NCBI RefSeq assembly: GCF_003860405.1
Contig: NZ_CP034170.1
Location: 558,001 to 622,000 of the forward strand
Direction of reading: 5' to 3'
DNA from: Nakamurella antarctica
GTDB taxonomy: Bacteria; Actinomycetota; Actinomycetes; Mycobacteriales; Nakamurellaceae
DNA: 64,000 nt
Shown here: positions 3,964 to 29,651 of the stretch, in pieces
Position numbering within the stretch: position 1 is the first letter of the stretch
Layout: every line of letters starts with the position of its first letter
The notes under the pieces: generated by a model
Databases searched by the model: none
Told to the model about the DNA's origin: nothing
Seen by the model: only the letters and a program-made list of their open reading frames with translations
Program-made: the position numbers and the translations under genes

Positions 3964-3979
3964 CCAGCGCAGGAGCGTG

Positions 3980-8372: not shown

Positions 8373-8558
8373 ATGAACTCATCGCAGAATCAACCCACCC
8401 AATCTGTCAGCCCGGGTGCTGACCCGTACGAGATGAAGTACGAAGGTCAGTCCAACCCCTTCATGATCAATCCCCTCAACGCTGCCGCCGCCGAATTTGA
8501 GTCCGGTCCGGCCTCTGTCCCTGTTGAGTCCCCGCGGGACGAGGATCGACCAAAATGA
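8373..8558 (+). CDS. 61-aa acidic hypothetical protein
   Basis: A short frame starting MNSSQNQPTQSVSPGADPYE, hydrophilic and rich in Pro, Ser, Asn and acidic residues, with no membrane segment or recognised domain. It lies between the stomatin-like gene and the tyrosine decarboxylase on the same strand. A weak AGAAAG stands before the ATG at 8373. It looks disordered. The position and lack of overlap with another frame make it plausible, but coding potential is only modest. Confidence 0.4.
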   Translation: MNSSQNQPTQSVSPGADPYEMKYEGQSNPFMINPLNAAAAEFESGPASVPVESPRDEDRPK

Positions 8559-8625
8559 CAAGTGTGTCTCAGAGTCGTTGCCTAGAAAGCATTCTCGCAG
8601 CACGTCAAAGTCAGGAGTAGACAAG

Positions 8626-10464
8626 ATGAGTGACATCGACTACAGAGCACTGTTCATTGGAGACCAAGCGGAGAACGGCCCCATCTTCAAGGAGCTTCTC
8701 GAAAAGTTGGTTGACGAGCACATCGGTTGGCGTCAGAACTACATGCCGGGGGATCGCCCCGGCATTGCCGTCCACGATAAGTCGATGCCGGAATATGAGG
8801 CGGCCCAGGAACGGATGCGCGAAGTGATGTCGGAATTGTCGCAGCGTCTCCGTGCTGGCTCGGTGCCGTGGAACAGCGCGGGACGCTACTGGGGCCACAT
8901 GAACGCCGAAACGCTCATGCCCGCCATTCTGGCCTATACCTTTGCCATGTTGTGGAATCCCAACAACGTGGCGCTGGAGTCGTCTATGGCTACCTCCAAG
9001 ATGGAGGCCGAGGTCGGTGCGGACTTCGCGAAGCTCTTCGGATTCGACGAAGGCTGGGGCCACATCTCAGCTGACGGCTCCATCGCCAACCTGGAGGGGC
9101 TTTGGTACGCAAGGTCCCTCAAGTCCATTCCCTTGGCGCTTGCCGAGACTCTGCCCGAGACCGTTGCTGGCAAATCCGAATGGGAACTGCTAAATATGAG
9201 CGTGGAGGAAATCCTTGACCTACTCGATACCTTGACCCCGGAGCAATACGACGAGGTGAAGGGAGCTTCGTCGCGCTCCGGTCGCAATATTAATCGGCTC
9301 GGTAAATGGCTGGTGCCTGAGACGAAGCACTACTCCTGGCTGAAGGCAGCCGACATCATTGGCGTCGGTTTGGACCAGCTGGTCGCCATTCCCGTGTCTG
9401 ACAACTACCGCATGGACATCGAAGCTTTGACGAAAATTGTCGAGGAGATGGCTCAATCGCGCACGCCCATTTTGGGCCTCGTTACCGTCGTTGGCACCAC
9501 CGAAGAGGGGGCGGTCGATGAGGTTGACAAGATCATTGCCCTTCGCGACCGAATGCGGGCCTCCGGGCTCTACTTCTACATCCATTGCGACGCCGCCTAC
9601 GGTGGATACGCGCGTTCGCTCTTCTTCGACACCGACGGCAGATTCGTTGACTACCCTGAGCTTTCGGAATTGCATCAAAGCCACGGGATTTTCTCGCGCG
9701 ATCTCCTAGTCTCCGAGGAGGTGTACGCCGGCTTCAAGGCCATCTCGCAAGTGGAGTCGGTCACGGTTGACCCGCACAAGATGGGCTACGTGCCCTATGC
9801 CGCTGGGGGAATCGCAATCCGCTTAAAGAAGATGCGCAACGTCATCTCATACTTCGCGCCCTATGTGTTCGACAAAGGCGTCGTGGCTCCGGACATGTTG
9901 GGAGCCTTCACCTTGGAGGGATCTCGCGCCGGTGCCACCGCCGCATCTGTATGGGCGGCTCATCGCTGTCTCCCTCTAGATGTCTCTGGTTACGGACGCC
10001 TCATCGCCTCTGGAATGCAGACGGCACACAGGTTCCGGGATTTCCTCGCCGATCTAAAGTTCACCGTCGCCGGACGAGTGGTGCGGGCTTTCCCGCTTCA
10101 CGATCCGGACTTCAACATGGTCGATTGGGTGTTCAAAGCCGACGACATGACCACTCTCGAAGAGGTGAACGACCTCAACCAGAAGATGTACGACCTTTCG
10201 TCCTACCTCGCGGGCCACGAATACAACAATATTTTTATTACCTCACACACAACGTTCTCCAGACAGGACTACGGCGACAGCCCCGCAAAGTTCATTCACT
10301 CACTGGGTTTTGACGATTCCGAATGGGGACGAGTGAAATCCGTGACCCTGCTGCGCGCGTCGATCCTGGACCCGTATCTCAACTCCAATGAACTGTTCAG
10401 CTACTACACGACAGCGATTGAGGCCGCCTTCAATGAGCGTTTGTCCGAGGTGCTTTCAGGATGA
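8626..10464 (+). CDS. tyrDC: PLP-dependent tyrosine decarboxylase
   Basis: A 612-aa group II amino acid decarboxylase converting tyrosine to tyramine and CO2. Length and sequence follow the enterococcal tyrosine decarboxylase almost throughout: ALFIGDQAENG at the N terminus, SVPWNSAGRYWGHMN, ADGSIANLEGLWYAR, GKWLVPETKHYSWLKAADIIG, VDPHKMGY with the PLP lysine at residue 385, and the C-terminal ITSHTTFSRQDYG. ATG 8626 is preceded by AGGAG at 8613-8617. The TGA overlaps the ATG of an amino acid antiporter gene, as in enterococcal tyrosine/tyramine operons. Decarboxylation plus exchange consumes a proton and exports charge, supporting acid resistance and membrane potential. Glutamate or phenylalanine cannot be excluded as substrate. 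Confidence 0.85.
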   Translation: MSDIDYRALFIGDQAENGPIFKELLEKLVDEHIGWRQNYMPGDRPGIAVHDKSMPEYEAAQERMREVMSELSQRLRAGSVPWNSAGRYWGHMNAETLMPAILAYTFAMLWNPNNVALESSMATSKMEAEVGADFAKLFGFDEGWGHISADGSIANLEGLWYARSLKSIPLALAETLPETVAGKSEWELLNMSVEEILDLLDTLTPEQYDEVKGASSRSGRNINRLGKWLVPETKHYSWLKAADIIGVGLDQLVAIPVSDNYRMDIEALTKIVEEMAQSRTPILGLVTVVGTTEEGAVDEVDKIIALRDRMRASGLYFYIHCDAAYGGYARSLFFDTDGRFVDYPELSELHQSHGIFSRDLLVSEEVYAGFKAISQVESVTVDPHKMGYVPYAAGGIAIRLKKMRNVISYFAPYVFDKGVVAPDMLGAFTLEGSRAGATAASVWAAHRCLPLDVSGYGRLIASGMQTAHRFRDFLADLKFTVAGRVVRAFPLHDPDFNMVDWVFKADDMTTLEEVNDLNQKMYDLSSYLAGHEYNNIFITSHTTFSRQDYGDSPAKFIHSLGFDDSEWGRVKSVTLLRASILDPYLNSNELFSYYTTAIEAAFNERLSEVLSG

Positions 10465-11981
10465 GCATCAAGGAAGCATCGCCCAATGCCGGTTCGCCCA
10501 GGGCCAGTCCCCAGCAGACCGCCGGGCGCAAGACCGGTTCGTCCAGGACCGCAGCGCTCAAAACAGTCGGTGTCCTGACCTTCTTCGGGATGACTGTTGC
10601 GATCGTCGCCAGCGTCCGCAATATCCCCAACGTGGCCGCGACCGGCTGGACAATGTTCTTCTACATGCTGGTAGCGACTTTGCTGTTTGCGCTTCCCATC
10701 ACGTTGATGTCTGGCGAATATGCGGCCAAGTTCCCGCGCGCCGGCGGGCCTGAACTATGGGTGACCAAAGGCCTTTCGCCGCGCTGGGGTTTCACCACCT
10801 CCTGGCTCCTCTGGGTACAGATGTTTCCCGGGATGGTGATGGTCGCATCGGTGGTGGCGCCACTGGTCGCCGTCACGATCGGGGACACCCAGCTCGGCTC
10901 GAACAGCATCTTCACGTTGATCTGCATCGTCGTTACCTACTGGACCATCACGATTCTCAACTTGTTTTTTGACATGGCGCGCATCGGGGGACGGATCGGT
11001 GTGATCTTAGGGCTTTACTTACCGGTCGCTTTCATGATGGTGCTCGGCGTCATCGCGCTCTTCAAAGTCGGCATCCAGAAGGATAGTTATCTCGGCGGCG
11101 CCGCTACCGGAAGGGTGTTGCTGCCCTTCTCCTCGCAATCGGTGAGCACGCTCGCATTCTTCGCCTCGATTGTCTTCATCTATTCCGGAATTGAGATGTC
11201 GTCGGTGTACATTCCCCGGCTGAAGACACCTGTCAAGACGTACCTCAGGGGCATTTTCATGGCCCTGATCTTCATGTTTGCCTTCAACACACTGCTGGCA
11301 TTTGTCACTGCCAACGTCATCCCGAAGGGCACCATCGACCTCAACAACATCGCACAGGCGCCGGTCATCATCCTCGGCATTTTGGGCCTGCCCTCGTGGC
11401 TCGGAAACGTCTTTGCCGCGTCCGTTCTCGTCGGTGTCGTGGTGCAGCTCTCGGCATGGGCCTCAGGCCCGTCCAAAACCATCACCTCCAGCGCCCGTCG
11501 TGGGCTGTATCCACCGAAACTGCGATTCTGGAAGACCAACCAATTCGATGTCGCACCAACGGTTCTCATTACTCAGGCCACCGTCATCTCGTTTTTCGCA
11601 CTGATCTTCATCCTTATCCCAGGCGTCAACAACGCGTTCCTGCTTCTGGTGACAGCCACGGCCATCATCTACATCGTTGTCTACGTTCTCATGGCGATCG
11701 GTATCCTCCGGCTCCGGTCGACGCAGTCGTCGACGGAGCGGGCCTTTCATATGGGCAATAAGCGTGTCGCCTGGACTGTGATGGTGGTCTTCCTGATCAC
11801 CGTCTTCGCGTCGAGCGTCGCGACGTTGTGGTATCAAGGCTGGACGAACGCCTTCATCATCGTCGCCATCACCGCCGTCCTCACGGCCGCACCCTTGATC
11901 ATCTACCGCAGGCACAAGCCCTCGTGGGCAAGCGATGTCGCGGTTGCTCTGCACGCAGAGGGTGTCGATGTCACGTCATGA
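10461..11981 (+). CDS. Amino acid/amine antiporter, GadC/TyrP-like APC transporter
   Basis: A 506-aa APC-superfamily transporter with 12 predicted membrane segments after a 30-residue Ser/Pro-rich cytoplasmic N terminus. The first segment carries TFFGMTVAIVASVRNIPNVA, typical of the glutamate:GABA antiporter branch that includes decarboxylase-linked exchangers. The start codon lies inside the decarboxylase stop (ATGA, 10461-10464), so the partners are translationally coupled. By context it should import tyrosine and release tyramine, giving a proton-motive cycle. Its own stop overlaps the next permease gene. Substrate is inferred from the neighbour. Confidence 0.8.
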   Translation: MSIKEASPNAGSPRASPQQTAGRKTGSSRTAALKTVGVLTFFGMTVAIVASVRNIPNVAATGWTMFFYMLVATLLFALPITLMSGEYAAKFPRAGGPELWVTKGLSPRWGFTTSWLLWVQMFPGMVMVASVVAPLVAVTIGDTQLGSNSIFTLICIVVTYWTITILNLFFDMARIGGRIGVILGLYLPVAFMMVLGVIALFKVGIQKDSYLGGAATGRVLLPFSSQSVSTLAFFASIVFIYSGIEMSSVYIPRLKTPVKTYLRGIFMALIFMFAFNTLLAFVTANVIPKGTIDLNNIAQAPVIILGILGLPSWLGNVFAASVLVGVVVQLSAWASGPSKTITSSARRGLYPPKLRFWKTNQFDVAPTVLITQATVISFFALIFILIPGVNNAFLLLVTATAIIYIVVYVLMAIGILRLRSTQSSTERAFHMGNKRVAWTVMVVFLITVFASSVATLWYQGWTNAFIIVAITAVLTAAPLIIYRRHKPSWASDVAVALHAEGVDVTS

Positions 11982-13336
11982 GTGTCGACGGAGAATCAGA
12001 TGGCCATCAGATCGGGTTGGTCGCCGCCATAGCTTTGTGTGTGGGGACGATGGTGGGCGGGGGAGTCTTCGCTCTGTCAGGGATCATTCTTAACGACACT
12101 GGCCCGCTAGCGATGGTTGCCTACTTCCTCGCCGCGGTCGCTGTGCTGTTTAGTGCGTTGTCCTTCGCCGCGGTCGCCAGCCGAGCAAAGGACGGCGACT
12201 CAGGATACGGCCCGATCGCTCAACATCTGGGGCCTCGCTGGCGCTTCGTGACGATGTGGGCCTTTTATGTGTCTGCAATCGCGGGGGGCGCGTTCATGCT
12301 GGTGGCGTTTGGATCGTATCTACGATATTTTCTCGCAGCGGCCAACCCCCTGCTGATGGGCCTCGCGGCTGCGCTCGCGCTGGTTCTGCTGAACCTGGGC
12401 CCGATCGATCTGGTCGGCCGCACTGAGACAGCGCTGGTGGTGTTCAAGTTGACCGTTCTCGTCGGTCTCATTGGAGTCGGCCTCGCGTCGTTCAAGGTCG
12501 ATCTCTTAGTTCCGTTCGCTCCGCACGGCTTGGGGGTCGTCCTGACGTCGAGCGGACTGCTGTTCAGCGCCTACCTGGGGTTCAGCGTCGTCACCAATGT
12601 GGCCGGGGTAGTCAAGAATCCCCGCCGCACGGTGCCGCTAGCGATCCTGGTGAGCTTGCTGATTGTGGCAATCGTGTATGTAGGGATCACGGTGGCCATG
12701 CTGATGAGCGGTCAAAAGGCTTTCGGAGCTGCGGGTGTGGCGCAGGCCGCGAATAGCCTCATAGGGCCTTGGGGTGGGGCGATCATCGCCATCACAGCAT
12801 GCGTTTCCACCCTCTCAGGTGCGAACGCGGTAATCCTAGGCAACAGTCAGCTGCTCATCAAGATGGCGGCTAACGGCGATATCCCCGCCCGGATGGGCCA
12901 CATCCGTAAGGGCGGCCACGCCTACGCAAGCGTGTTGCTTACCGGAATCGTCGCGGTCGTTCTGATGCTCACCGGGGGCCTCCAGAGCATCGTCGCCTAC
13001 TGCAGTGTTGCCGGAATCGTCGGGCTCGTGCTCATGAATGTCACAGCCTTACAAATGGCTCGAAATGGTTGGCCCGGAGCGGGTTTGAGACTTCCCTTCG
13101 GAATCGCCATTCCGGCCCTGGGGACAATTTTGGCGCTCGCGCAACTGCCCTCGCTCGGCTGGAAGAACGTGCTTATTGGCCTGTCGCTGGTCGCGGCAGG
13201 CTTGGTCGTCTACGCAGTGCGCGAGCGCTCACTTCGAACACGTCGAAGGTCGAATGTGCTGGGACCAGTTAATTTGTTCCCCCCGCAGCGGCCGTCGGTC
13301 CCACCAACACAGTCGAGAAGTGCAGGTTCTGCTTAG
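11978..13336 (+). CDS. APC-family amino acid permease
   Basis: A 452-aa permease starting in the ATGA overlap at 11978 with the antiporter gene. It opens with QIGLVAAIALCVGTMVGGGVFALSG, the GxGIF-like first helix of APC transporters, and has about 12 membrane segments and a basic C-terminal tail with LRTRRRS. It differs clearly from the preceding antiporter and may be an independent importer that feeds the decarboxylase, or an amine exporter. It is the third gene of a tightly coupled unit (decarboxylase, antiporter, permease). The decayed DUF2231 copy follows immediately. Confidence 0.8.
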   Translation: MSVDGESDGHQIGLVAAIALCVGTMVGGGVFALSGIILNDTGPLAMVAYFLAAVAVLFSALSFAAVASRAKDGDSGYGPIAQHLGPRWRFVTMWAFYVSAIAGGAFMLVAFGSYLRYFLAAANPLLMGLAAALALVLLNLGPIDLVGRTETALVVFKLTVLVGLIGVGLASFKVDLLVPFAPHGLGVVLTSSGLLFSAYLGFSVVTNVAGVVKNPRRTVPLAILVSLLIVAIVYVGITVAMLMSGQKAFGAAGVAQAANSLIGPWGGAIIAITACVSTLSGANAVILGNSQLLIKMAANGDIPARMGHIRKGGHAYASVLLTGIVAVVLMLTGGLQSIVAYCSVAGIVGLVLMNVTALQMARNGWPGAGLRLPFGIAIPALGTILALAQLPSLGWKNVLIGLSLVAAGLVVYAVRERSLRTRRRSNVLGPVNLFPPQRPSVPPTQSRSAGSA

Positions 13337-13934: not shown

Positions 13935-16283
13935 TCAGGGGTGCGGCATGGGTGCGCGAGACTTCGGCTGAGTGGGAGCTGGGCCGGCTGGCCGCTCGTG
14001 GTTCGGCAAGAAGATCGGGCTGTCGATGGCCACCGTCATCGGCTGCCCATAGTGCAGCAATTCCAGGGGCTGCCCCTCGAGGACGCGGTAAGTGGTTGCC
14101 GTAGGGGCAATTTCGACCTTGAGTCTGCTACCCCGGATGCAGACTTTTGCCGTCAGGCGTGTGATGCCTGTTGGAAGGCGTGGGGTGAAAGCGACCGTCC
14201 CTCCGTGGTCCCGCATGCCAGCGAAACCGGGAACCAGCGCCGTCCACACTCCTGCAAGGGATGCGAGATGTAGCCCATTACGGGTGTTGCGGGCCAGATC
14301 TCCGAGGTCCATCATCGCGGCCTCGGTCAGGTAGTCGTATGCCAAGTCGAGATGGCCCGTCTCAGCGGCCAAAACCGCTTGAGCGCAGACGGACAGGGAG
14401 GAATCCCGGACCGTAAGAGCTTCGTAATAGGCAAAATTGCGGGCCTTCTCAGCGCTCGAAAAAGATTCACCGCGCAGGTGCATTGCCAACACCAAATCTG
14501 CCTGTTTCACTACCTGCTTGCGGTAGAGGTCAAAATAGTGGAAGTGCAGCAGTAGGGGGTATTGATCGCTGGAGGTCGAGTCAAAATCCCACACCTCGTG
14601 GCGGGTAAAGCCTTCCGACTGGCTGTGGACTTCGAGTTCGTGGTCGTATGGCAGGATCATCGCCTTCGCTGCCTTGTGCCACGCGTTGACCTCCAGCGCC
14701 GTGACGTTGAGTTCTTGGGCGCAGTCGGGATTGCGCTGCACCGCCTTCGCCGCGCTCACCAGGTTGTGCTGGGCCATCAGATTTGTGTAGATATTGTTAT
14801 CGGCAATGGCCGAATATTCGTCGGGGCCGGTCACTCCGTCGATCCGAAACCCGCCACGTGCGTCGAAGTGGCCAAGCGAGGCCCACAACCGCGCGGTCTG
14901 AACCAGGATTTCCATTCCGACGTCCCGCTCAAAGTCCTCGTCGCCAGTGATGTGGACGTAACGGACTACCGCATCGGCGATATCGGCAGCTACGTGGAAC
15001 GCGGCTGTGCCGGCAGGCCAGTATCCAGAGCACTCGCGACCATCGATGGTTCGCCACGGGAAGACCGCACCCGCCAGGCCGAGTTGTTTGGCGCGGATCT
15101 GGGCCTGCGGCAGGATCGAATGCCGCCACCGCAACGCGTCGGCGGCCGCGCGCGGCGCGGTGTAAGTCAGTACCGGCAGCACGAAAGTTTCGGTGTCCCA
15201 GAAGGCATGGCCGTCATAGCCGGGACCGGTCAGCCCTTTCGCGGCAATCGCGCGACCCTGCGCCCGAGCGCCCGCCTGCATGACGTGGAACAGGCCGAAC
15301 CGCACCGCTTGCTGGACCCGAAGGTCGCCTTCGACTTCGACGTCGGCGCCTCCCCAGAAATCATCCAGATACGCGCGGTGCTCTGCGACCAAACCATCCC
15401 AGCCCGTTTGAACGGCTGCGGTCAGCGCGGCAGCGATCTGGTCGGCGATTGCCGATTGCGAACGAATCGCGGACCATCCGTAGGTCACAAACTTGATCAG
15501 CCGGAGGCGTTGCGCAGGCTCGAGTTTCGCTGTAACCGTAACTCGGGCCAGATCCTCGGCGCTTTCACTTGATATCTGCACTGATGGCGGTCCCTCGATC
15601 TGGTGATCCATCGCCGCCCCTAACTGCAAATTGCTGACGCTCGTGCGGTGCACCAAAGATGCAGAACCCGCCTCGGATCTGTGCTGTTCAGAGTGCAGCG
15701 TGGTCTGAAGCGCCGCTGCCTCCCTCGGGTCGCGGCCGCCACCAGGGGGTAGGGGCTCGTTAGCCACCAACTCCGACTGGAGTACTACCCGAGCGGCAGT
15801 ATCGAGAGCCTCCACCTCGTAACAGATGGCGGCCACCGAACGCTGTACCAGAGACACCAGCCGCGTCGATCGAACCCTGACACCCTGCCCACTCGGAGAC
15901 ACCCAGGACGCCTCGCGGTGCAGTAACCCGGTGCGGAAATCCAAAACCCGCTCGTGTTCGAGGAGGCGCCCGTACCGGATATCGAAAGGCTCGTCGTTAA
16001 CGAGAAGGCGGATCAATTTGCCGTTGGTGACGTTGATGACGGTCTGTCCGGCCTCGGGGTAACCAAAGGCCACTTCGGCGTAGGGCAGCGGCCGCTCCTC
16101 GAAAAACCCGTTGAGATAAGTCCCCGGGAGGCCGTGCGGCTCGCCCTCGTCCAGGTTCCCACGCCAGCCAATGTGGCCATTGGACAAAGCAAACAATGAC
16201 TCGCTGTGCGCTAAGCCATCCAGATCGAGCGAGGTCTCTCGCAGGCACCACGGTTCGGCCGGGTACCCGGGGCGTCCGATCAC
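13935..16283 (-). CDS. GH65 glycoside phosphorylase (maltose/trehalose/kojibiose type)
   Basis: A 782-aa glycoside hydrolase family 65 protein. An N-terminal beta-sandwich (to about 270) is followed by an (alpha/alpha)6 barrel with AFWDTETFVLPVLTY, the catalytic acid Glu489 in GVTGPDEYSA, and a C-terminal beta domain. These enzymes usually cleave an alpha-diglucoside with phosphate to beta-glucose 1-phosphate and glucose. The upstream overlapping gene (ATGA, 16280-16283) encodes a beta-phosphoglucomutase, the natural partner converting beta-glucose 1-phosphate to glucose 6-phosphate. The same gene pair occurs in mycobacteria. The exact disaccharide cannot be read from sequence. It is last in a five-gene operon headed by phosphoketolase. 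Confidence 0.85.
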   Translation of the reverse strand: MIGRPGYPAEPWCLRETSLDLDGLAHSESLFALSNGHIGWRGNLDEGEPHGLPGTYLNGFFEERPLPYAEVAFGYPEAGQTVINVTNGKLIRLLVNDEPFDIRYGRLLEHERVLDFRTGLLHREASWVSPSGQGVRVRSTRLVSLVQRSVAAICYEVEALDTAARVVLQSELVANEPLPPGGGRDPREAAALQTTLHSEQHRSEAGSASLVHRTSVSNLQLGAAMDHQIEGPPSVQISSESAEDLARVTVTAKLEPAQRLRLIKFVTYGWSAIRSQSAIADQIAAALTAAVQTGWDGLVAEHRAYLDDFWGGADVEVEGDLRVQQAVRFGLFHVMQAGARAQGRAIAAKGLTGPGYDGHAFWDTETFVLPVLTYTAPRAAADALRWRHSILPQAQIRAKQLGLAGAVFPWRTIDGRECSGYWPAGTAAFHVAADIADAVVRYVHITGDEDFERDVGMEILVQTARLWASLGHFDARGGFRIDGVTGPDEYSAIADNNIYTNLMAQHNLVSAAKAVQRNPDCAQELNVTALEVNAWHKAAKAMILPYDHELEVHSQSEGFTRHEVWDFDSTSSDQYPLLLHFHYFDLYRKQVVKQADLVLAMHLRGESFSSAEKARNFAYYEALTVRDSSLSVCAQAVLAAETGHLDLAYDYLTEAAMMDLGDLARNTRNGLHLASLAGVWTALVPGFAGMRDHGGTVAFTPRLPTGITRLTAKVCIRGSRLKVEIAPTATTYRVLEGQPLELLHYGQPMTVAIDSPIFLPNHERPAGPAPTQPKSRAPMPHP

Positions 16284-17107
16284 GAGGGAGCATTCTTGCT
16301 GAGCAGGTCGCCGAGGTCCAGTACGACCTGGTCGGCGCCATCGGCAAGTAAGTCTTCGGTCTGGCCGACGCGGTCGACGCCGACCACCCAGCCGAAGCCG
16401 CCGGCCCGCCCGGCCCTGACACCGGGGAGGGAATCCTCAAATACCGCGGCTGCGCAGGGTTCGATGCCCAACGCCGCGGCCGCGGCCAAGTACGGGTCCG
16501 GTGCTGGCTTGCCCGCGAGGCATTGCGCCTCGATTGTGACGCCATCGATGCGCGCTTGGAAGAGGTCTGCGATGCCTGCGGACAGGAGCACCTCCGCGCA
16601 GTTCGCGCTGGAGGACACCACGGCCGTCTTGAGACCAGCTGACCGCACAGCTTGCACGTAGTAGACGGAACCTGGATAGGGCTCGACCCCACCGTCGCGG
16701 ATCCTGCGCATCACGATGGCATTCTTGTACTCACCGAGTCTCGTGATCGTCATATCGCCTTGATTTCGGGTGAGATCGGATGTTTGGTAGCTACTGTCAC
16801 TTGTGAGCCGCACTCCTCGCGACCCCAGTGGGAGCTCGATGCCGCGCGAGTGTAGGAACGATATCGTTCCGTCGCTTCTGCTCTTTCCGTCCACGTAGGC
16901 GGCGTAGTCCGCGAGTTCATCGAACGGGGCAAAGGCAGCCCCTGCTTCGTTGGCGCGGGCTTCAAGATAGGCGTCGAACATTTCCTTCCATGCCGCTGCG
17001 TGCAGCCGCGCGGTGTCGGTGAGCACGCCGTCCAAGTCGAACAGGCATGCTCGGACCGTCGCCGGCAATCCCAACGGGCCTTTCGCAGCGGCTCCCCTTG
17101 CGATCAA
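16280..17107 (-). CDS. Beta-phosphoglucomutase, HAD superfamily
   Basis: A 275-aa HAD phosphatase-fold enzyme with nucleophile Asp24 and general acid Asp26 in FDLDGVLTDT, a helical cap containing YVDGKSRSDG, then VVSSSANC (motif 2), AGKPAPDPYL (motif 3 lysine) and VFEDSLPGV (motif 4). This is the beta-phosphoglucomutase type that interconverts beta-glucose 1-phosphate and glucose 6-phosphate. A segment of about 15-20 residues around 100-120 (LTSDSSYQTSDLTRNQGDM) looks longer than in relatives I recall. Start and stop overlap the PRC-barrel gene (ATGA at 17104-17107) and GH65 (16280-16283), so the three are translationally coupled. Confidence 0.85.
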   Translation of the reverse strand: MIARGAAAKGPLGLPATVRACLFDLDGVLTDTARLHAAAWKEMFDAYLEARANEAGAAFAPFDELADYAAYVDGKSRSDGTISFLHSRGIELPLGSRGVRLTSDSSYQTSDLTRNQGDMTITRLGEYKNAIVMRRIRDGGVEPYPGSVYYVQAVRSAGLKTAVVSSSANCAEVLLSAGIADLFQARIDGVTIEAQCLAGKPAPDPYLAAAAALGIEPCAAAVFEDSLPGVRAGRAGGFGWVVGVDRVGQTEDLLADGADQVVLDLGDLLSKNAPS

Positions 17108-17541
17108 GGGTTTTCCTTACCCAAAGCCCAACTGACGTGCAGGGGATAGGTATGGGTAGCGCCCCAGTACGGTTCGTTTCCGAAGTAGCTGTAGACATGC
17201 GCGTGGTAGGGCCGATCGTTGACGAAGGTCGCGTCGTACTCCGGCGCCCCCGCAACACCCGCGCCCGCTTGATCGATGATCACCTCGTCCTTGGTGATGT
17301 CGGTGACGGCGTCGACCGGCACGAGGGTCTCCTCATCACCGACGCCGAGGAACCCACCATGTTCGACGAGGAGAAAACGAACTTTCTCCTGTTGTTCATC
17401 GATGATGAGGTCGGCACCCTGCCAATGCCGACGCCGTCTTTGTCCATCACGTGACGGCCGCGGATGTCGTCGGCCGGCCCGTCGACCGTTTGGCCTCGAT
17501 CGCCGAGTGCGTACATCGCGGGAGTAGCTAATGCTGGCCAT
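17104..17541 (-). pseudogene. PRC-barrel protein gene with a frameshift
   Basis: The last 100 codons encode a clear PRC-barrel protein (LIIDEQQEKVRFLLVEHGGF, ETLVPVDAVTDI, and a His/Tyr-rich tail). The usual N-terminal part (ALGDRGQTVDGPADDIRGR, then HVMDKDGVGIGRV) is present, but in another frame. The two frames meet at about 17420-17425, where restoring one base to the run reading GGGTGCC would rejoin VGIGRV to ADLIID. The ATG at 17541 has a good site (GAAGGAG), but its frame gives non-family residues until the shift, so a second indel near the start is possible. The stop overlaps the beta-phosphoglucomutase start. It may be a real mutation or a sequence error. PRC-barrel proteins of this kind are often stress-linked. 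Confidence 0.65.
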
Positions 17542-17590
17542 GGGTTTTTGCTCCTTCGGGCAGTATGTGTGAAGCTCCGCCGGTTGCGGA

Positions 17591-20122
17591 TCACGTGGTT
17601 AATGCAGCGGTCAGGGCGGGCTTGTGCCCGCTCAGATGGCCACTTGCGCCCGGGCCGGTTGGCTTCTTGTCGGGGTCCAGGATCCGATAGGCGAGCAGTT
17701 TGGCGCGGTCGTTGACGAGGAACCAGAGGAGCGCGTAGCCCCATACAAACGCCGCCCAGCCCCAGCCCAGCGGCGTCATGAACAACCCGTAGACGGCGAT
17801 CAGGGTCGCGATTGCTTGGGTGCCCAGTACGGCCAAAAACACTATGCGGGCGGGTCGGATCGACCAGAACGGGCCGCGGGTGCGGGTCAGGAAGATGGTC
17901 AGGTGTCCCGCGACCGAAAGCTTGAGATACATCAAGGTTTGGACCTGGTCGCGGCCTAGGTGGAAGACCCTTTCCCCCAGGTAGAAGAGCCCGAATGCAG
18001 CGACGACTCCGGTGATGCCCAGGACGGTCGAGATGCCGAGCACGATGCGCATGTTCCAGGCTTCTGGCTTCATTTTGTACCGCACGTTGTCGTAAGCGAT
18101 GGATAGGATGGCGCCGTCATTGAGCAATGCCAGCATCACGATCATGATCGCGGTGACCGGATAGAAGTTGAAGACCAGGATCGCTAGTGTCATAAACAGC
18201 AGCACCCGAAGTGTTTCCGCGATCCGGTACATAGCGTAGGAGTTCATCCGCTGGAAAATCTTCCGGCTTTCCTTGATCGCGTCGATGATCACCGACAGAC
18301 CTGGTGTGAGCAGGACGATGTCGGCGGCGGCGCGGGCGGCGTCGGTAGCACCTGAGACGGCGATTCCGCAGTCGGCCTGCTTGAGTGCTGGCGCGTCATT
18401 GACTCCGTCACCTGTCATCCCGACGATGTGGCCGCGCTCCTGCAGGACGTCGACAATGTGGAATTTGTGTTCGGGAAATACCTGCGCAAACCCGTCAGCG
18501 GCCTCGATCGACTCGGTGACGGCGGCGGTTTCTTGCTTCTTCACTTCGCCAAGGCCGGACGCGTCCAAAATCTCTGTGCCCAGGCCGACTTTGGCTGCGA
18601 TCTCTTTGGCGATGGCGAGGGCGTCACCGGTCACCATCTTCACTTCCACGCCCATTGCCTTTGCTGTGGCGATGGTTGACGCGGCGTCTTCACGTGGCGG
18701 GTCGAATAGCGGCAGCACCCCCAGGAACTTCCACCCGTCGGTGCCTTGTGCGCGGGCTACACCCAGCGCGCGAAAGCCCTTGGTAGCGAATGTATTCACG
18801 GCCTTGTCGACGGCAGTCTTGATGGCTGCCGAGTCCGCTGCCAGCGCCAAGATGACCTGCGGGGCGCCCTTACTGACCTTGAACGTTTCACCGTCGTCGC
18901 CGGTGACGGCGGCTTCGGTCCGCTTGTCGACCGGGTTGAACGGCTCGAAATGGGTCACCTTGTAGCGGTTGAGAGCACTCTTATCGTCCAGGCTGCCCAG
19001 GACTGCAAGGTCGATAGGGTCGTTGTTGTCGGCGAGGGAAGCCAGAGCCCCCGCGAGGATCACGTCCGAAGCTGTGACACCTTCGAGGCTGAACGGGTCG
19101 CCGAGGGTGAGCGAGTTCTGGGTCAGCGTGCCGGTTTTGTCGGCGCACAAGATATCCACGCCAGCGAGTTCTTCGATCGCCACCAACTTGCTGACGATGG
19201 CCTTCTTTTTGGCCAGCAACCTGGCGCCGACGGCCATGGTCACCGACAGCACGGTGGGCATCGCGACCGGAATCGCGGCAACGGTCAGGACCAGCGCGAA
19301 TTGCAGGGTCGTCAAAATCTTGTCGCCGCGCAGGATCGCCACCACAAGGATCACCGAGACCAAGGCAACCGCAAGCAGAATGAGGTAGTTGCCGATTTTC
19401 AGGACGGCCTTCTGGAAGTGGCTCACGGTGTGTGCGTCTTGGACTAATTCAGCGGTCTTGCCGAAATAGGTGTGGGTGCCGGTCGCGTAGACCAGCGCGC
19501 CGATCTCGCCGCGGCGGATGATCGACCCCGAGAACACCGCGTCACCAGGCTGGCAAGTCGTCGGCAATGATTCCCCGGTCAGTGCGGACTGGTCAACTTC
19601 GATTTCGTCACCGTCCAACAGCCGGGCATCTGCTGGCACGATGTCACCCAACCGCAGGCGAATCACGTCGCCGGGCACCAGGTCTCGAGCCGCGGGCGTG
19701 ACCCACTTGCCGTCGCGCCGGACGCGAGCATTGATGGCAAGCTTGGCCTTGAGCGCCTGGATGGCGTTTCCAGCCTGCCGCTCCTCTGAATATCCCACGA
19801 CGGCATTTGCCAACAGCAGAACCAGGATGATGAAAAAGTCTGCCCAGTGGCCCACAGCCCCGGACAGAACCACCGCCACTTCGATCATCCACGGAATCGG
19901 ACCCCAGAAGTACGACAGGAACTTCAGCAGTGGGTTGGTCTTGTGCTCGGCTATCTCGTTGGGGCCGTAGTGTTCGAGCCGCTTGGTGGCCTCGTCCTGG
20001 CTGAGCCCGTCCGGTGAGGTCTGGAGATGCTCCAGGACCTGGGCCATCGGCAGGGTCTGCAATTCGTTCTGCGATTGGGGCGACGTGCCTTGTGCCGGAA
20101 CCCGTTTAGCATCAGTGTTCAT
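17591..20122 (-). CDS. Proton-pumping P-type ATPase (P3A, plasma-membrane H+-ATPase type)
   Basis: An 843-aa P-type ATPase. It has a cation-transporter N-terminal domain (about 20-85), [20 protein letters not shown] leading into the first membrane pair, [22 protein letters not shown] in membrane segment 4, the phosphorylated Asp in [21 protein letters not shown] for nucleotide binding, [21 protein letters not shown], and six C-terminal segments including [15 protein letters not shown]. These are features of the plasma-membrane H+-ATPase group, which pumps protons out using ATP. ATG 20122 lies within the phosphoketolase 3' end (11-bp overlap), so the two are translationally coupled. It probably holds internal pH or membrane potential when respiration fails. 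Confidence 0.85.
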
Positions 20123-22517
20123 CGGGAGCCCAGACCCAGTTACGGATCTCCGGGAGATCCTGGCCGTGCTTGTTGATGTACAGGTTGTGTTCCACAAGCT
20201 TGTCGACCATCGTCTGCTTCAGGTAATCGCCGGTGGCTCCGAGCTGAGGGAGCCGATCGATCACGTCCTGCACGAGGTGGAATCTATCGAGGCGGTTTTG
20301 CACTCGCATATCGAAGGGAGTGGTGATGGTGCCCTCCTCGTTGTAACCGCGGACGTGGAGGTTCCGGTTGGCTCGACGGTAGGTCAGCCGGTGGACCAAG
20401 GTCGGGTAGCCGTGAAAGGCGAAGATGATGTGTTTGTCCCGGGTGAACAGCGCGTCGTAATCGCCGTCGGACAGCCCATGCGGATGCTCAGTGTCTGACT
20501 GAAGTTTCATCAAGTCCACCACGTTGACCACCCTGATTTTGAGCCGCGGCAGATGTTCGCGCAGGATTGACACCGCTGCGAGCACTTCGAGAGTGGGTGT
20601 GTCGCCGCAGCAGGCCAGCACCACGTCCGGTTCTGCGCCGCCGTCGTTGCCAGCCCACTCCCAGATCCCGATGCCTTCGGTGCAGTGAACTTCTGCCTGC
20701 TCCATAGACAACCATTGCGGCATAGCATGTTTGCCAGCAACGATGACGTTGACATAGTGACGGCTGCGCAGGCAGTGATCGGTGATCGAAAGGAGACAGT
20801 TGGCATCCGGGGGGAGATAAACGCGAACGATGTCGGCCTTCTTGTTCACCACGTGGTCGAGGAACCCGGGGTCTTGGTGGGTGAACCCATTGTGGTCCTG
20901 TTGCCACACGTGCGAAGCGAGCAAGTAGTTCAGCGAAGCGATGTCGCGCCGCCAAGGTAGGGCTTTAGTGACCTTGAGCCATTTCGCATGTTGGTTAAAC
21001 ATGGAGTCGACTATGTGAATGAACGCCTCGTAGCAGTTGAACAATCCGTGTCGTCCCGTGAGCAAATAGCCTTCCAACCAGCCTTCGGACTGATGCTCCG
21101 AGAGCATCGAATCCAACACCCGTCCGCTGGGCGCGAGGGACTCGTCGCCATTAACCGTGCGGGCCTCCCACTGCCGGTCTGTGACTTCGAAAACTGCGCC
21201 GAGCAGGTTAGACAGGGTCTCGTCGGGACCGAAGATCCGGAAGTTGCGCTGGTCCTCATTTAATGTGACGACGTCGCGGAGGAACTTGCCGAGAACTTCG
21301 GTGTCGTGGGCTTGGACGCCTCCGGGGACTAGGACCGTGACGGCGTGTGCACGAAAATCGGGCATGCGGAGGTCGCGAAGAAGCAAGCCGCCATTGGTGT
21401 GTGGGTTGGCGCCCATCCGCCGTTCCCCCTGAGGGGCAAGGGAAGCCAAATCTGCGACCAGTCGGCCGTCGCGGTCGAACAACTCTTCGGGCCGGTAGCT
21501 GCGCATCCAGCTCTCGAGGAGTGCGATGTGCTCCGGGTGAGCCTCATCGACAAGCAGTGGCACCTGGTGCGCATGGAAGGTGCCCTCGATCTGCACGCCG
21601 TCGACCACCTTCGGTCCGGTCCACCCCTTGGGAGAACGGAGCACAATCATCGGCCACCGAGGCCGCATCGTCGTGCCGCCGCCACGGGCGCCTGCCTGGA
21701 TTCGTTTGATGGCCTCGATGGTGTGGTCCAGGACGGACGCCATCATTTCGTGCATCATTTCTGGATCATGGCCTTCGACGAAGTAAGGGTCCCATCCGCA
21801 GCCGCGCAGATACTGGTCCAGTTCCTCGTGTTCGATACGGGCAAGCACGGTCGGGTTGCTGATTTTATAACCGTTGAGGTGCAGGATCGGCAGCACAGCT
21901 CCATCACTGGCCGGGTTGAGAAACTTTGTGGAGTGCCAAGCCGTTGCCAACGGTCCTGTTTCTGCCTCCCCGTCGCCGATCACGCAGGCGACGATCAGGT
22001 CAGGATTGTCGAATGCGGCCCCGAACGCGTGACTGAGTGAGTAGCCGAGTTCGCCGCCTTCGTGAATGGAGCCAGGGGTAGTGGGGGCGACGTGGCTTGA
22101 GATGCCGCCGGGAAAAGAGAACTGGGTGAAAAGCTTCCTAAGGCCGTTTTCGTCCTGACTGATGTCCGGATAGATCTCGCTGTAGCTGCCTTCCAGGTAG
22201 GTATTGCCAACCAGTGCGGGACCGCCGTGGCCCGGTCCGGCCACGTAGAACATATTTACGTCATATTTTACGATTGCCCGGTTGAGGTGGACGTAGATAA
22301 AGTTTTGTCCCGGAGTGGTGCCCCAATGCCCAACTACCAGAGGCTTCACATCCGACAGCGCCAACGGACGTTTCAATAGCGGATTGTCGTAAAGATAGAT
22401 TTGCCCCACCGATAGGTAGTTGGCTGCCCGCCAATAGGCGTCCATGTGGTGCAGGAGCGCTGGATCCAGTGTGCCTGCAGCCGTGATGATCGCTGTATTC
22501 GTCAGAGTATTTGTCAT
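20112..22517 (-). CDS. xfp: Xylulose 5-phosphate/fructose 6-phosphate phosphoketolase
   Basis: An 801-aa thiamine-diphosphate enzyme that splits xylulose 5-phosphate or fructose 6-phosphate with phosphate, giving acetyl phosphate. The length is normal. Signature stretches are [91 protein letters not shown] with LHLNGYKI for ThDP/Mg binding, and SPKGWTGP. Acetyl phosphate yields ATP through acetate kinase and can also phosphorylate response regulators. It heads the operon with the H+-ATPase, PRC-barrel, beta-phosphoglucomutase and GH65 genes. A DosR-like half-site lies at 22544-22557. Confidence 0.95.
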
Positions 22518-22543
22518 AGCGTTGTCTTCGTTTCTTGCAGTTG

Positions 22544-22557
22544 GGGACTTTGGGGAG
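22544..22557. promoter_or_regulatory. DosR-like half-site upstream of phosphoketolase
   Basis: On the minus strand the sequence AAAGTCCCCAA fits the right half WWAGTCCCSAA of the mycobacterial DosR box exactly; the left half is absent. It begins 27 bp before the xfp start codon, so it would lie in the 5' leader or core promoter. A half-site alone is weak evidence. Confidence 0.25.
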
Positions 22558-22562
22558 AGTCG

Positions 22563-22700: not shown

Positions 22701-22900
22701 GCCGCCAGCATAGGGCCGTTAGCGGAGGTGGCAACCGCTGGGAATTCCTGGTTGGTGCTTTTGCTCGGGAGAAAGCGGCTACCCACGATGGTCCTCTCGT
22801 TGACGACCACGCCACGTGGTCTTCGCTCACGAGAATTCATCCCCGGCAGCGCAGCATCAAGGGCCGAAAAGTCCGCACCCCAGGGGCTTTGGTCATAGAC

Positions 22901-22930
22901 CCGGCCCCGGTCATCGGTGACCGGGGCCGG
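22901..22930. terminator. Perfect 13-bp hairpin downstream of devS
   Basis: CCGGCCCCGGTCA at 22901-22913 and TGACCGGGGCCGG at 22918-22930 form a perfect stem with a TCGG loop. It lies about 190 bp past the devS stop on the minus strand and has no U-run on either side. It may act as a U-less terminator for devRS or as a regulator-binding inverted repeat. Confidence 0.45.
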
Positions 22931-23119
22931 ATGGGCAAGCCAGCTTATGACGCCGGCGCGACGGTGGGCCAGTAACCGGGGGTAGCGCAAAGTTGCGCGT
23001 CAATCGGCACCCGCGGTCTGTTCCATAGGTCAATGGTCCTCGACGTCCCGAAACAGGGGTAGGGGCCAAGGGCACGCGTCCTATGCCAAAGGACCCTACA
23101 AACAAAAACTGAACCACTA

Positions 23120-24817
23120 TCAAACGAATGGCGCTTGCCAAGTCAGCTCTGTGCCTCCGTCGGGGTGGTTCCCGATGCTGAAACTTCCGCCCGCTTCTTT
23201 TGCTCTGTACTCGAGATTCTTGAGACCGCGGGGCGTAGAGCTGGCAGGAATCCCAATTCCGTTATCCCGCACATTGATAATCAGCTCGTCCGCGACCTTG
23301 ATGGAGACCGTCACACTGCTGGCGCGCGCATGACGCACAACATTGCTCACCGCTTCCCGCACCACCGCTTGCGCGTCGCTGCGAAGTCCCGCTGAAACAA
23401 TTCCGATAGGGCCAGAGATTAGTACCGTCGGGAGCACCCCAGAGTTTTCTGTTAGCTCGATAACCGCTTTGTTCAACACCACTCGCAATTTGGGTGGTTG
23501 TGCCGAGTCGATTTCGAGATCGAAGATGGTGCCGCGGATGTCGGCTATCACCTCCTGCAGCCGGTCGATGTGCTCGTCCAATCGCTGCGAGACCTCGATA
23601 CTCGCTGTGCGCCGCTGGGTGCCTTGCATTGCCAACCCAATGGCAAAGAGCCGCTGAATCACTTGGTCGTGCAGATCTCTCGCGATCTGCTCGCGGACTG
23701 CTATGACGCTCGCCTCCTGCCGCTGCGCCTGGCTCTGGGCGCGCTGCAGAGCCAGCGCAGCCTGGACGGCGAAGGACGCAGCGATTTGCAGTTGCTCAGG
23801 ATTGAACAACTCTGAGCTGGGTGCCCGAACTGCCAACAACACACCGGAAATAGTGTCGCCGGTACGCAGGGGTACAGCCATGGCGGGGCCAAAAATCTTG
23901 CTTTCGCCCACGCCTACGTCATACGTGAGGCGGGGCACGCTCCGAGGGACACCGTCGGAGAAAACCATCCCTGTCGTAGATCCGGCGACCGGAACAATGC
24001 GGCCGATGACTGCGTCACCGTCTTTCCCCACGCTCATCGCAATGACGAGATGCTTTGCCGAGCATGCGTTCTCGGGTGGGTCCGGAAGTAAAATTGCAGT
24101 CTGATCTGCGCCGATAAGTTCTAGTGCGCGTTCGGCAATGAGGCGCAGCGAATCGTCAGTGGTAGTGCCATCAAGGATCTCGATGGTGATTTCACCAGAA
24201 ACCTCGAGCCACCGTTGGCGCTGCCGGACTGCTTCGTACAACCGCGCGTTTTCGATCGCGATGCCGGCCGCGGTGGCGAGCGCGTGAACAAGCACCTCAT
24301 CGTCGGCCGTGAAACCGCCCTCGTCGTGTTTCTCGGTGAGGTACAGGTGTCCGAAAAGTTGACCGCGTACGCGTAAGGGTACGCCAAGAAATGTTGTCAT
24401 TCTGGGGTGGTGAGCCGGAAAGCTAACGTGGGCAGGGTGCTGGGTGAGGTCGTGCATTCGCATGGGAGCGTCGTTGGAGAAGACAATTCCTAGAATCCCG
24501 CATCCGGTGGGCAGAGCCCCTATCCTGTCGACGGCTCCTGGTTCCATTCCACAGTGAATAAACTGCGAAAGCGTGCCGTCTGGCGCTAGAACCCCTAGCG
24601 CCCCGTATCGGGCACCTACCAAATCAGTCGCAGCTTCGACAATTCGCTCGTAGGTCTGTTCCAGTTCTAGACCTGTAGCAACGGAAAGCATTGCCTCGAG
24701 GAGGTTTTCGTTCCGCTGCCGTCCGAGGGGGGTTGACAGATGGACATGTCTGGAGGCGATCACCAGCCACTGCAATCCGCGGTCATGGCGACCGAAGTTG
24801 CGTCGAAAGAACCGCAA
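23120..24817 (-). CDS. devS: DevS/DosT-type GAF sensor histidine kinase
   Basis: A 565-aa kinase with the DevS layout: GAF-A (about 45-190), GAF-B (about 215-360), a HisKA_3 helix with phosphoacceptor His383 in [18 protein letters not shown], and a HATPase domain (about 470-562) with [13 protein letters not shown] and VRDNGIGIP. In GAF-A the segment [18 protein letters not shown] aligns with the mycobacterial DevS heme pocket; His137 falls on the heme-ligating histidine, so gas or redox sensing through heme is likely. It lies downstream of devR on the same strand, overlapping its end by 35 bp if the TTG at 24815-24817 is used; GTG at 24761-24763 is an alternative. Not a phytochrome or cyclase: no other domain is present. 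Confidence 0.9.
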
Positions 24818-25415
24818 TCTGGGTGCGCCTAGCCATCCCCAGTTTTGTCAGCAGGTGCGAAACGTAGTTCTTCACAGTCTTTTCGGCCAAGAACATCCGC
24901 TCAGCAATTTGCCGGTTCGTCAGGCCTTCCCCGATCAGGTCGAGGAGCGTCCTTTCTTGAACGCTCAGACCTGCTGCAGGGCCAGGGTTCTCAACGCTCT
25001 GGCGTAACCGATTCATCAGCACAGCAGCTGCGCGGTTATCGAGCAGCGATTTACCGGACCCGACGGTGCGGATCGCCGAGATCAGGTCCAGGCCGCGGAT
25101 GTCCTTGATGACGTAACCGGCGGCCCCCGCCAACACGGCGTCAACCATGGCTTGTTCGTCGGGGTAGGAGGTAAACATGAGGCAGCTCAAGTCCGGCATC
25201 ATGGAGCGCAGCTCGCGGCACAGTTCCACCCCATTTCCATCCGGAAGTCTGATGTCCAGCACGGCCACATCAGGCTTGGCGGCGGGTATCCGCGCCAGCG
25301 CTTCGGCAACTGAGCCGGCTTGTCCCACGACGGTCATATCGATCTGTTCCTCGAGCAGATCGGCGACACCGCGGCGCACCACCTCGTGGTCATCGACCAT
25401 GAAGACTTTGAGCAC
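24783..25415 (-). CDS. devR: DevR/DosR-type NarL-family response regulator
   Basis: A 210-aa response regulator closely following mycobacterial DosR. The receiver begins [20 protein letters not shown] with acidic pocket Asp8-Asp9, phosphoacceptor Asp54 in [27 protein letters not shown], and the switch-side lysine in GYVIKDI. The LuxR-type HTH reads [20 protein letters not shown] followed by [19 protein letters not shown]. Taking GTG at 25413-25415 as start places Asp54 exactly as in DosR; an in-frame ATG at 25517 would add 34 low-complexity residues. Neither start has a strong ribosome-binding site. It should bind GGGACnnnnGnCCC-like boxes, candidates for which occur in this window. Confidence 0.92.
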
Positions 25416-25605
25416 CCGAGCAGACCCAGCCCGAAGCGCGCTTTCTTGGGGTGCGGAACTGGACTCGATTACCACTGCTCGCCGTTCACTGTGGGCGGGC
25501 ACAACCGTTTCCATCATGACATGAGTGTCGCTGCGAGCGCCGGCCAGCGCCAGGGGAGAAAGTCCTGTTCTTTGTTGGTAAACGGGACGAAGCGGGCAGG
25601 GGTCA

Positions 25606-26190
25606 TTAGGGATCCATGAAGTCATTGCAAGCGAGCAGAAGCTCCGCCATCTCGGCGGCTGTTCCACCGAACGCGGCCGTTCGGTTCTCCAAGTTGCTTC
25701 GCGCCCCTTCTATCGAGAGCCCCGTTTCCATCAGCACGCCCAAAACTTGGTTGATGGCATCGAAGTCCAGGAGAGTGGCTGCTGGATCGGGTATCTCAAC
25801 CATATCTTCGCCGTCTAGATCGAACCCGCCGGTAAACTCCGTCCAGTTTTGCGCATCAGTTGCGAGCGCGGCGAAGGCGCGACGGCGCGATGCGTAAAAC
25901 GTCATCCGGGTACTTGACTCAACGTGTGCCGCGGGCATAGCCAACGAAGCAGCGACAGCGACACCCCGATCGGGATCCATCGTGCTAAACGTCAAGGTGG
26001 TCATGCCCACTCGGACATTGATCGTGAGTCCGAGAAATGAAGGTACCGCAGCCGTTAAGTCATCCGCCAGCACCCCAAGCATCGCTTCGAGGTCGCCGCC
26101 GAGCGGCCCGAGGTTTTCGCTCAAGGTCGCTAGGACGGCAGAGAGGGCTGCGGGCATTTCCTTCAAGGAGTGCTCCGGGGCGATCCGCAT
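25606..26190 (-). CDS. Unrecognised protein with ANTAR-like C-terminal helices
   Basis: A 194-aa protein. The first 120 residues look like a degraded sensory fold ([22 protein letters not shown]), and the last 55 ([20 protein letters not shown], then [18 protein letters not shown]) resemble the three-helix ANTAR layout without its usual conserved residues. I cannot assign it to a family with confidence. It lies downstream of a clear GAF-ANTAR gene and about 190 bp upstream of devR, all on the minus strand. The ATG at 26190 is chosen; a GTG at 26238 would add 16 residues. No strong ribosome-binding site is seen. Confidence 0.5.
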
Positions 26191-27424: not shown

Positions 27425-27438
27425 GGGACCACCGACCC
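27425..27438. promoter_or_regulatory. DosR-type box between the GAF-ANTAR and universal stress genes
   Basis: GGGACCACCGACCC matches all ten fixed positions of GGGACnnnnGnCCC. It lies 92 bp before the universal stress protein ATG and 226 bp before the divergent GAF-ANTAR start. The distance suits activation of the universal stress/CBS operon. Confidence 0.5.
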
Positions 27439-29501: not shown

Positions 29502-29606
29502 GGTGATGGCCTCCCCGTGAGAGCAGCTTAGATGCGCAGAACGCTGTCTTTTCCATCGTGACTAGAGCTGGAGGTGAAAATCAGGGGATGTCGGTACCTC
29601 ACTTAA

Positions 29607-29620
29607 AGGACTAAAGTCCC
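29607..29620. promoter_or_regulatory. Strong DosR-type box upstream of the flavin-binding protein
   Basis: AGGACTAAAGTCCC matches 13 of 14 positions of GGGACTWWAGTCCC, the core of the mycobacterial DosR box, and is almost perfectly symmetric. It lies 106 bp before the minus-strand start of the flavin-binding gene and downstream of the cupin gene stop, so it most likely serves the former. Confidence 0.65.
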
Positions 29621-29651
29621 TAAAGCGATATCGCCCACGCGGTGCGGCGGC

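Follow-up and report, generated by a model that had tools for sequence, protein, structure and literature searches.

A phosphoketolase, plant-type proton pump and sugar phosphorylase gene cluster in Nakamurella antarctica, a probable actinobacterial form of a horizontally transferred energy cassette

We analysed a 64,000-nucleotide window (positions 558001-622000; G+C content 60.8%) of the single-contig genome of Nakamurella antarctica (3,377,955 bases), in which a compact gene cluster joins a phosphoketolase gene (xfp) to genes for a P-type H+-ATPase, a PRC-barrel protein, a beta-phosphoglucomutase (beta-PGM) and a GH65 alpha-glucoside phosphorylase. The open reading frame (ORF) list and domain searches place these five genes on the minus strand, in one direction and nearly gap-free, with spacings along this order of -11, +49, -4 and -4 bp, consistent with an operon. 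In window coordinates, xfp occupies 20112..22517 (801 aa) and the ATPase gene 17591..20122 (843 aa), followed by the genes for the PRC-barrel protein (17104..17541; 145 aa), beta-PGM (16280..17107; 275 aa) and GH65 (13935..16283; 782 aa). An ATG start at 20122 for the ATPase bears out the 11-bp overlap with xfp that an earlier note on this DNA had claimed; the ORF list also permits a TTG at 20197. The same note had the last three genes joined by ATGA overlaps. The overlaps are indeed 4 bp long, but their sequences are TTGA and GTGA, from the TTG start of beta-PGM and the GTG start of GH65. Shine-Dalgarno-like sequences precede the PRC-barrel (AAGGAG) and beta-PGM (AAGGA) genes, and none is visible upstream of the ATPase and GH65 genes, which would fit translational coupling of these two. 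From this arrangement we infer that all five genes probably share one transcript.

The xfp product carries the Pfam domains XFP_N, XFP and XFP_C and is a full-length phosphoketolase, scoring 1416.7 bits on NCBIfam NF003619 (cut-off 962) over residues 13-798 of 801 and matching ten solved phosphoketolase sequences at E-values from 0 to 8e-176. A second xfp, 65% identical to that of the cluster, lies elsewhere in the genome. The ATPase is of Type IIIA (plant/fungal-like), with a score of 1054 bits on TIGR01647, above the equivalog cut-off of 615.5. Its best solved match is plasma-membrane ATPase 2 (5ksd; E=9.5e-211), to which residues 20-805 of 843 align with the proton-site Asn, Arg and Asp conserved; the corresponding membrane residues of the plant proton site are AHA2 N106, R655 and D684. 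Sequence comparison thus supports a predicted ATP-driven proton exporter, which resembles the plasma-membrane H+-ATPases AHA2 and Pma1 in its near full-length match and its conserved catalytic and proton-site residues. Plant pumps have a long regulatory tail; unlike them, the bacterial protein ends 38 residues past the region aligned to 5ksd, which leaves no room for one.

On the sugar side, pairs of GH65 phosphorylase and beta-PGM genes are known, and here GH65 likewise adjoins beta-PGM with overlapping starts; unlike in those pairs, the two genes stand downstream of xfp and an H+-ATPase gene. The HAD-family beta-PGM has a solved beta-phosphoglucomutase as its nearest solved relative (8h5s; E=3.6e-72), its next best matches are also beta-PGMs, and it carries the FDLDG catalytic motif (LFDLDGVLTDTA). 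The GH65 protein, the sole GH65 match in the genome, has three GH65 Pfam domains and aligns to maltose and kojibiose phosphorylases with the acid Glu, the tandem Ser, the Lys and the His conserved. Passages of PMC8626586 give a phosphate site of two consecutive Ser, a Lys and a His, together with the general-acid Glu, as what distinguishes GH65 phosphorylases from a hydrolase. In our protein this site reads DSSLS, against ESSLS or KSSLS, and the Lys of AKGL, the His of GLH and the Glu of DEY are kept, the Lys and His columns having been picked by reading of the alignment. These active-site residues support its assignment as a phosphorylase. For trehalose phosphorylases, a fingerprint TRIGPP at positions 64, 392, 394, 402, 416 and 585 of TbGP is given in part of PMC8537180. 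Read by hand from a pairwise alignment to 3wiq, the protein matches this fingerprint through T, R, I and G as far as position 402; position 416 falls in a gap next to a Pro, and 585 is His rather than Pro. Thus, with four of the six positions as in TbGP, trehalose is the likely substrate, and the enzyme is probably a trehalose phosphorylase.

We surveyed the neighbourhoods of related ATPases through a scan of genome contigs with five aligned ATPases, which returned 558 relatives; the best 80 were kept and represent 79 distinct loci. XFP is encoded within 10 kb of the ATPase at 28 of these, PPK2 at 26, aldolase at 19 (always co-directional), Band7 at 18 and AckA at 16; GH130 (13), PRC-barrel (12), GlgP (11), a HAD protein (11), GH65 (9), beta-PGM (9) and phosphoglucomutase (8) are less frequent over the same distance. 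Counted over whole loci, at least one phosphorylase occurs in 33 of 79, XFP together with a phosphorylase in 14, and XFP, AckA or PPK2 in 48. Where the contig extends at least 9 kb on both sides (39 loci), XFP is present in 18 and at least one of nine module families in 34. Pfam confirms one representative each of the GH130, GlgP-type phosphorylase, PRC, transaldolase, phosphoglucomutase, mannose-phosphate isomerase, histidine phosphatase and SpoIIAA-like genes. A recurrent theme emerges, in which the proton pump is accompanied by a phosphorylase, by a phosphoketolase together with an aldolase and in some cases a transaldolase, and by acetate kinase and/or PPK2. That three unrelated phosphorylase families take the same slot argues for function and not common descent alone. 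A further compact block, comprising mannose-6-phosphate isomerase, a PMM-like HAD protein, a GH130 phosphorylase and the H+-ATPase, was observed at L016, L017, L036, L049 and L087 (Verrucomicrobia, Acidobacteria and Chloroflexi).

The association of xfp with the ATPase gene is conserved and exceeds chance. XFP genes are uncommon in the background, 198 actinobacterial genomes giving 48 matches in all at E<=1e-100, so 28 XFP within 1.16 Mb of flank is far above what chance would give. Classified by their record titles, the 28 loci are spread over nine phyla, namely Actinomycetota (8), Verrucomicrobiota (4), Pseudomonadota (4), Chloroflexota (3), Bacteroidota (2), Acidobacteriota (2), Planctomycetota (2), Thermodesulfobacteriota (1) and Cyanobacteriota (1), with one locus unclassified.

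The central PRC-barrel gene, recognized by PF05239 (30.8 bits; cut-off 21.2), encodes a protein with no solved relative below E=0.19. We judge it less likely to be a random passenger, given its occurrence within 10 kb of 12 of the 79 ATPase relatives and directly before XFP in several; it is a recurrent accessory of the cassette. The loci at which a PRC-barrel gene stands immediately upstream of XFP (L016, L019, L041, L064 and L087) belong to several phyla.

Comparable clusters occur on plasmids and in Rhodococcus. A plasmid of Rhodococcus sp. AQ5-07 encodes an ATPase 82% identical to ours, in the order slipin, small protein, xfp, class I aldolase, ATPase, histidine-phosphatase/beta-PGM fusion and GH65. 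Here, too, adjoining genes share 4 bp, both where ATPase meets beta-PGM and where beta-PGM meets GH65. The fusion places both domains in one ORF (L003:17538-18947), and histidine phosphatase genes also occur near 7 of the 79 other ATPase relatives. In rearranged form, a plasmid of Frondihabitans sp. PAMC 28766 carries slipin, GH65, xfp, aldolase, histidine phosphatase, ATPase, beta-PGM and PRC; its ATPase (L005, 12001-14423) matches in two pieces with no listed gene and 17 stops in the chosen frame, and may be broken. In Rhodococcus sp. 1163 a single cluster contains xfp, aldolase and ATPase genes together with an inverted GH65-beta-PGM pair. Including that of N. antarctica, four actinobacterial clusters therefore have the beta-PGM/GH65 pair beside XFP and the ATPase. 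The gene set is thus conserved in other lineages, so that the outcome named in the earlier note as refuting, a lack of conservation beyond the strain, does not occur, although none of the 79 genome loci and none of the five plasmid regions inspected shows the exact five-gene order with the central PRC.

Phylogenetic trees, which were unrooted and built from XFP and ATPase sequences longer than 700 residues (L005 being left out of the first ATPase alignment), suggest a history of transfer. In the XFP tree (25 rows, short search), cassette XFPs of eight phyla fall together (21 rows; support 90, or 98 with the long-branched L051), the genome's second xfp falls apart from this group, and the XFPs of the window, Frondihabitans and other actinobacterial cassettes form one group of 11 rows (support 99). 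The cluster XFP belongs to this cassette lineage and its gene directly overlaps a TIGR01647-type ATPase gene, which places it among the phosphoketolase-H+-ATPase cassettes. In the ATPase tree, the actinobacterial rows lie on one side of a branch (support 100), and several other phyla are split. Across 20 loci (L051, L122 and L123 left out), ATPase and XFP identities co-vary with r=0.61, a value reached in 0 of 2000 permutations. Additionally, none of the 16 other genomes of the genus contains a match to the ATPase at E<=1e-100, its best other match among 396 genomes of the phylum (its own included) is 61% identical, and no XFP above 69% identity was found in 197 other actinobacterial genomes. 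Plain vertical inheritance is unlikely given these values, and a curiosity of this strain alone is ruled out by the related plasmid and genome clusters. We read the pattern as a single transfer into the actinobacteria, or else out of them, with later movement within the group that also involved plasmids.

We consider it probable, by a modest margin, that the cluster represents a horizontally transferred energy cassette in its actinobacterial form, in which sugar phosphorolysis and phosphoketolase-derived acetyl phosphate would supply ATP for proton export. As a first step, GH65 would use phosphate to cleave an alpha-glucoside (trehalose in all likelihood), releasing glucose and beta-glucose 1-phosphate; beta-PGM would convert the latter to glucose 6-phosphate with no ATP spent. 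The phosphoketolase would then act on fructose 6-phosphate or xylulose 5-phosphate to yield acetyl phosphate, with no NADH formed. Acetate kinase, encoded elsewhere in the genome, would presumably form ATP and acetate from it, and the P-type H+-ATPase could use this ATP to export protons. The cell would thereby maintain its membrane potential and cytoplasmic pH in a redox-neutral way that does not depend on respiration, be it under hypoxia, acid stress or cold starvation. The sequences support the GH65 and beta-PGM steps and, for the phosphoketolase and the pump, the enzymes themselves. The genes and their association are thus observed, flux and direction are what we infer, and least certain of all is which stress the mechanism answers. 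Phosphorolysis saves one ATP per bond, and phosphoketolase gives acetyl phosphate without NADH and so ATP without an electron acceptor; by standard stoichiometry, full recycling of one trehalose would give six acetate and five net ATP with a phosphorylase versus four with a hydrolase. The link that had been proposed between sugar mobilization free of ATP cost, acetyl phosphate and ATP-driven proton export is supported by the comparative gene neighbourhoods.

Phosphoketolase metabolism as such is familiar, as the bifid shunt or non-oxidative glycolysis is a phosphoketolase pathway. As in that pathway, XFP here would yield acetyl phosphate, and genes for aldolase, transaldolase, Pgi and AckA lie near XFP in several relatives; unlike it, the cluster ties XFP to a P-type H+-ATPase and phosphorylases, and holds only XFP of the pathway itself. 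In agreement with the earlier note, no unit of such composition was found in titles or abstract openings of the open-licence literature, a body of text that most subscription journals lie outside. A methanotroph transcriptome paper (PMC3404531) contains the terms 'phosphoketolase' and 'polyphosphate kinase'. Passages of the R. equi genome paper call Xfp intriguing and list DosR homologues separately (PMC2947987).

Several observations weigh against the energy-cassette interpretation. The conversion of acetyl phosphate to ATP requires acetate kinase, and ackA is not in the five-gene cluster but ~158 kb from xfp. That the genome does encode it, adjoined by a pta-like match (37% over 120 residues), and has two PPK2 genes outside the cluster speaks for the interpretation. 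The two sugar-side assignments miss family cut-offs, beta-PGM just short of TIGR02009 (148.8 versus 153.35) and further below TIGR01990 (83.9 versus 189.4), and GH65 below PRK13807 (456.6 bits versus 838). The 79 loci are the best of 558 and include several from one metagenome-assembled genome (MAG), so they are not 79 independent genomes. No XFP was found within 10 kb in 51 of them, some being on short contigs, and xfp is present in only two of the five plasmid regions examined. Among the plasmids without it, that of Caballeronia has pta, ackA and PPK2 adjoining the ATPase gene, that of Acidiphilium has slipin and DUF3141 genes, and that of Rhodococcus WB1 has a 60% identical ATPase with none of the gene set nearby. 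The Pseudomonadota count is the weakest by phylum, as L029 and L047 are contig-end fragments and L051 has a 60% XFP of another lineage.

The statistical contrasts also have limits. Eight distant P-type ATPase loci (32-34% identity to the same query) had none of the nine module families in 100 kb of flank, which favours the cassette, but this control set is small and its members were assigned to other P-type classes by identity alone. Twelve intermediate ATPases (39-60% identity) had XFP and AckA at two loci of one genus and the rest of the nine families at none. The XFP background was drawn from actinobacteria alone, a phylum to which most of the 79 loci do not belong, and shared ancestry inflates the correlation between ATPase and XFP.

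The strongest alternative, which we regard as unlikely but deserving of weight, is an acid-resistance island in which the ATPase exports protons at low pH, the sugar genes supply its ATP, and a decarboxylase with permeases forms a second acid-resistance arm. A tyrosine-decarboxylase-like gene and two amino-acid permease genes do lie beside the cluster at its 3' end, on the opposite strand, and relatives of the ATPase include those of Acidiphilium, lichen isolates, bog and fen MAGs, Ferrovum and Mycolicibacterium sphagni. However, other relatives carry the names of anaerobes or marine bacteria (Syntrophobacteraceae, Peptostreptococcaceae, Formosa and Winogradskyella), none of which is, to our knowledge, acidophilic, and the neighbouring DevRS, USP and GAF-ANTAR genes indicate oxygen or redox sensing. 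Viewed by itself, the decarboxylase gene followed by the two permease genes (8497-13336) resembles a decarboxylase-antiporter acid-resistance unit.

Upstream of xfp, and on the same strand, lie genes for a DevS/DosT-like GAF histidine kinase (23120..24817), whose first GAF domain matches solved DosT/DevS GAF domains (best E=3.3e-44), and a DevR/DosR-like response regulator (24783..25667), which closely matches the solved mycobacterial DevR over residues 86-292 (E=1.6e-89) with the DNA-binding region conserved; the N-terminus of this ORF is probably overcalled by a long start. The 602-bp gap between devS and xfp contains a hairpin with perfect 13-bp arms and no U-tract (22901..22930; -32.2 kcal/mol, z -5.15, 0 of 200 shuffles as good), a possible terminator of the upstream unit. 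Given this hairpin, xfp probably opens a separate unit.

This setting underlies a second alternative, that individually useful stress genes merely reside together in a DevR-type dormancy island and are not directly coupled in their biochemistry. Genes for DevR, DevS, GAF-ANTAR, USP, CBS, PPOX and Band7 proteins are present in the window, which in this resembles the OsdR region described in PMC5069765, and the adjacent DevR, DevS, USP, CBS, PPOX and alcohol dehydrogenase genes recall the DevR/DosR and OsdR dormancy regions generally. The window differs from those regions in that the words 'ATPase' and 'phosphoketolase' do not occur in the main text of that paper and no good box lies upstream of xfp here. 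Against co-residence alone, the same enzymes recur near the ATPase mostly without DevS (within 10 kb at 3 of 79 loci), largely in one orientation and with phosphorylase families swapped. The overlapping starts recur in the Rhodococcus plasmid as well. We hold mere co-residence to be quite improbable.

Searches for DevR control of the cluster gave little. A 20-mer consensus scan, a half-site listing, two pattern searches and an OsdR weight matrix yielded no DevR box upstream of xfp that beats shuffled sequence. A single weak half-site, TTGGGGACT, lies on the plus strand at 22541..22560, 24-43 bp upstream of xfp, and lacks its second half. The best OsdR-type site upstream of xfp, at 22860, is 13th by rank in the window, and every one of ten shuffles contains a site that scores higher. 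The pattern of one search has no match within 545 bp upstream of xfp and one with a mismatch at 23062; counts of the two patterns across the window are not above chance (13 versus 16.87 expected; 2 versus 4.10 expected), and simple promoter and terminator scans of the region are at chance (3 versus 1.8; 8 versus 7.7). Elsewhere, a DevR-type palindrome, TAAAGGACTAAAGTCCCTAA, stands at 29604-29623 just upstream of the PPOX gene (16 of 20 positions; ~0.17 expected per window at that score). Palindromes also lie upstream of the alcohol dehydrogenase gene (GGGTCCTTGGACCC, 2847-2860) and the USP gene (GGGACCACCGACCC, 27425-27438), with window counts at chance; genes of both kinds are among the OsdR targets named in PMC5069765.

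A third alternative, which we rate as more doubtful still, is that acetyl phosphate from XFP serves mainly in signalling: by phosphorylating the adjacent DevR it would free the dormancy response from its dependence on DevS. The devR-devS pair is immediately upstream of xfp, and the DevR homologue OsdR was phosphorylated by acetyl phosphate in vitro according to PMC5069765. Against it, DevS is within 10 kb at only 3 of 79 relatives (DevR was not counted; L081 has one weak match), and the second xfp and ackA with its pta-like neighbour would also set acetyl phosphate. Acetyl phosphate feeding DevR, as the earlier note had suggested, may be considered only a possibility; the overall interpretation in that note is strengthened in its metabolic part and not in its DevR part. 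Least credible is that GH65 works in synthesis and supplies trehalose for protection against cold, unrelated to XFP and the ATPase: GH65 phosphorylases also catalyse the reverse reaction (PMC8626586) and the host is from Antarctic soil (PMC9789016), but the beta-PGM/GH65 pair accompanies XFP and the ATPase in four actinobacterial clusters, and GH130 and GlgP take the place of GH65 elsewhere.

Further features of the window lie apart from the cluster. A single ORF at 3875-6319 combines a P-type ATPase with a C-terminal hemerythrin domain, and two large DUF5979/DUF11 repeat proteins (41900-44038, 712 aa; 44855-52756, 2633 aa) are possibly surface proteins.

Returning to the energy cassette, we propose more tentatively, and at somewhat less than even confidence, a portable module present in at least nine bacterial phyla, of which no description was found in the literature searched, and which would run membrane energetics in reverse. 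In it, stored sugar would be phosphorolysed and fermented redox-neutrally via a dedicated phosphoketolase lineage, and ATP from acetate kinase, buffered by polyphosphate kinase, would drive a plant-type H+-ATPase that replaces the respiratory chain as the pump in anoxia. This cross-phylum cassette is the larger finding. How aerobes hold a proton gradient and internal pH once oxygen is gone is a long-standing question in actinobacterial dormancy. If true, our reading would offer a concrete and testable answer, one in which no electron acceptor is required and no F-type ATP synthase has to run in reverse; additionally, bacterial plant-type H+-ATPases would gain a function and PRC-barrel proteins a defined physiological setting.

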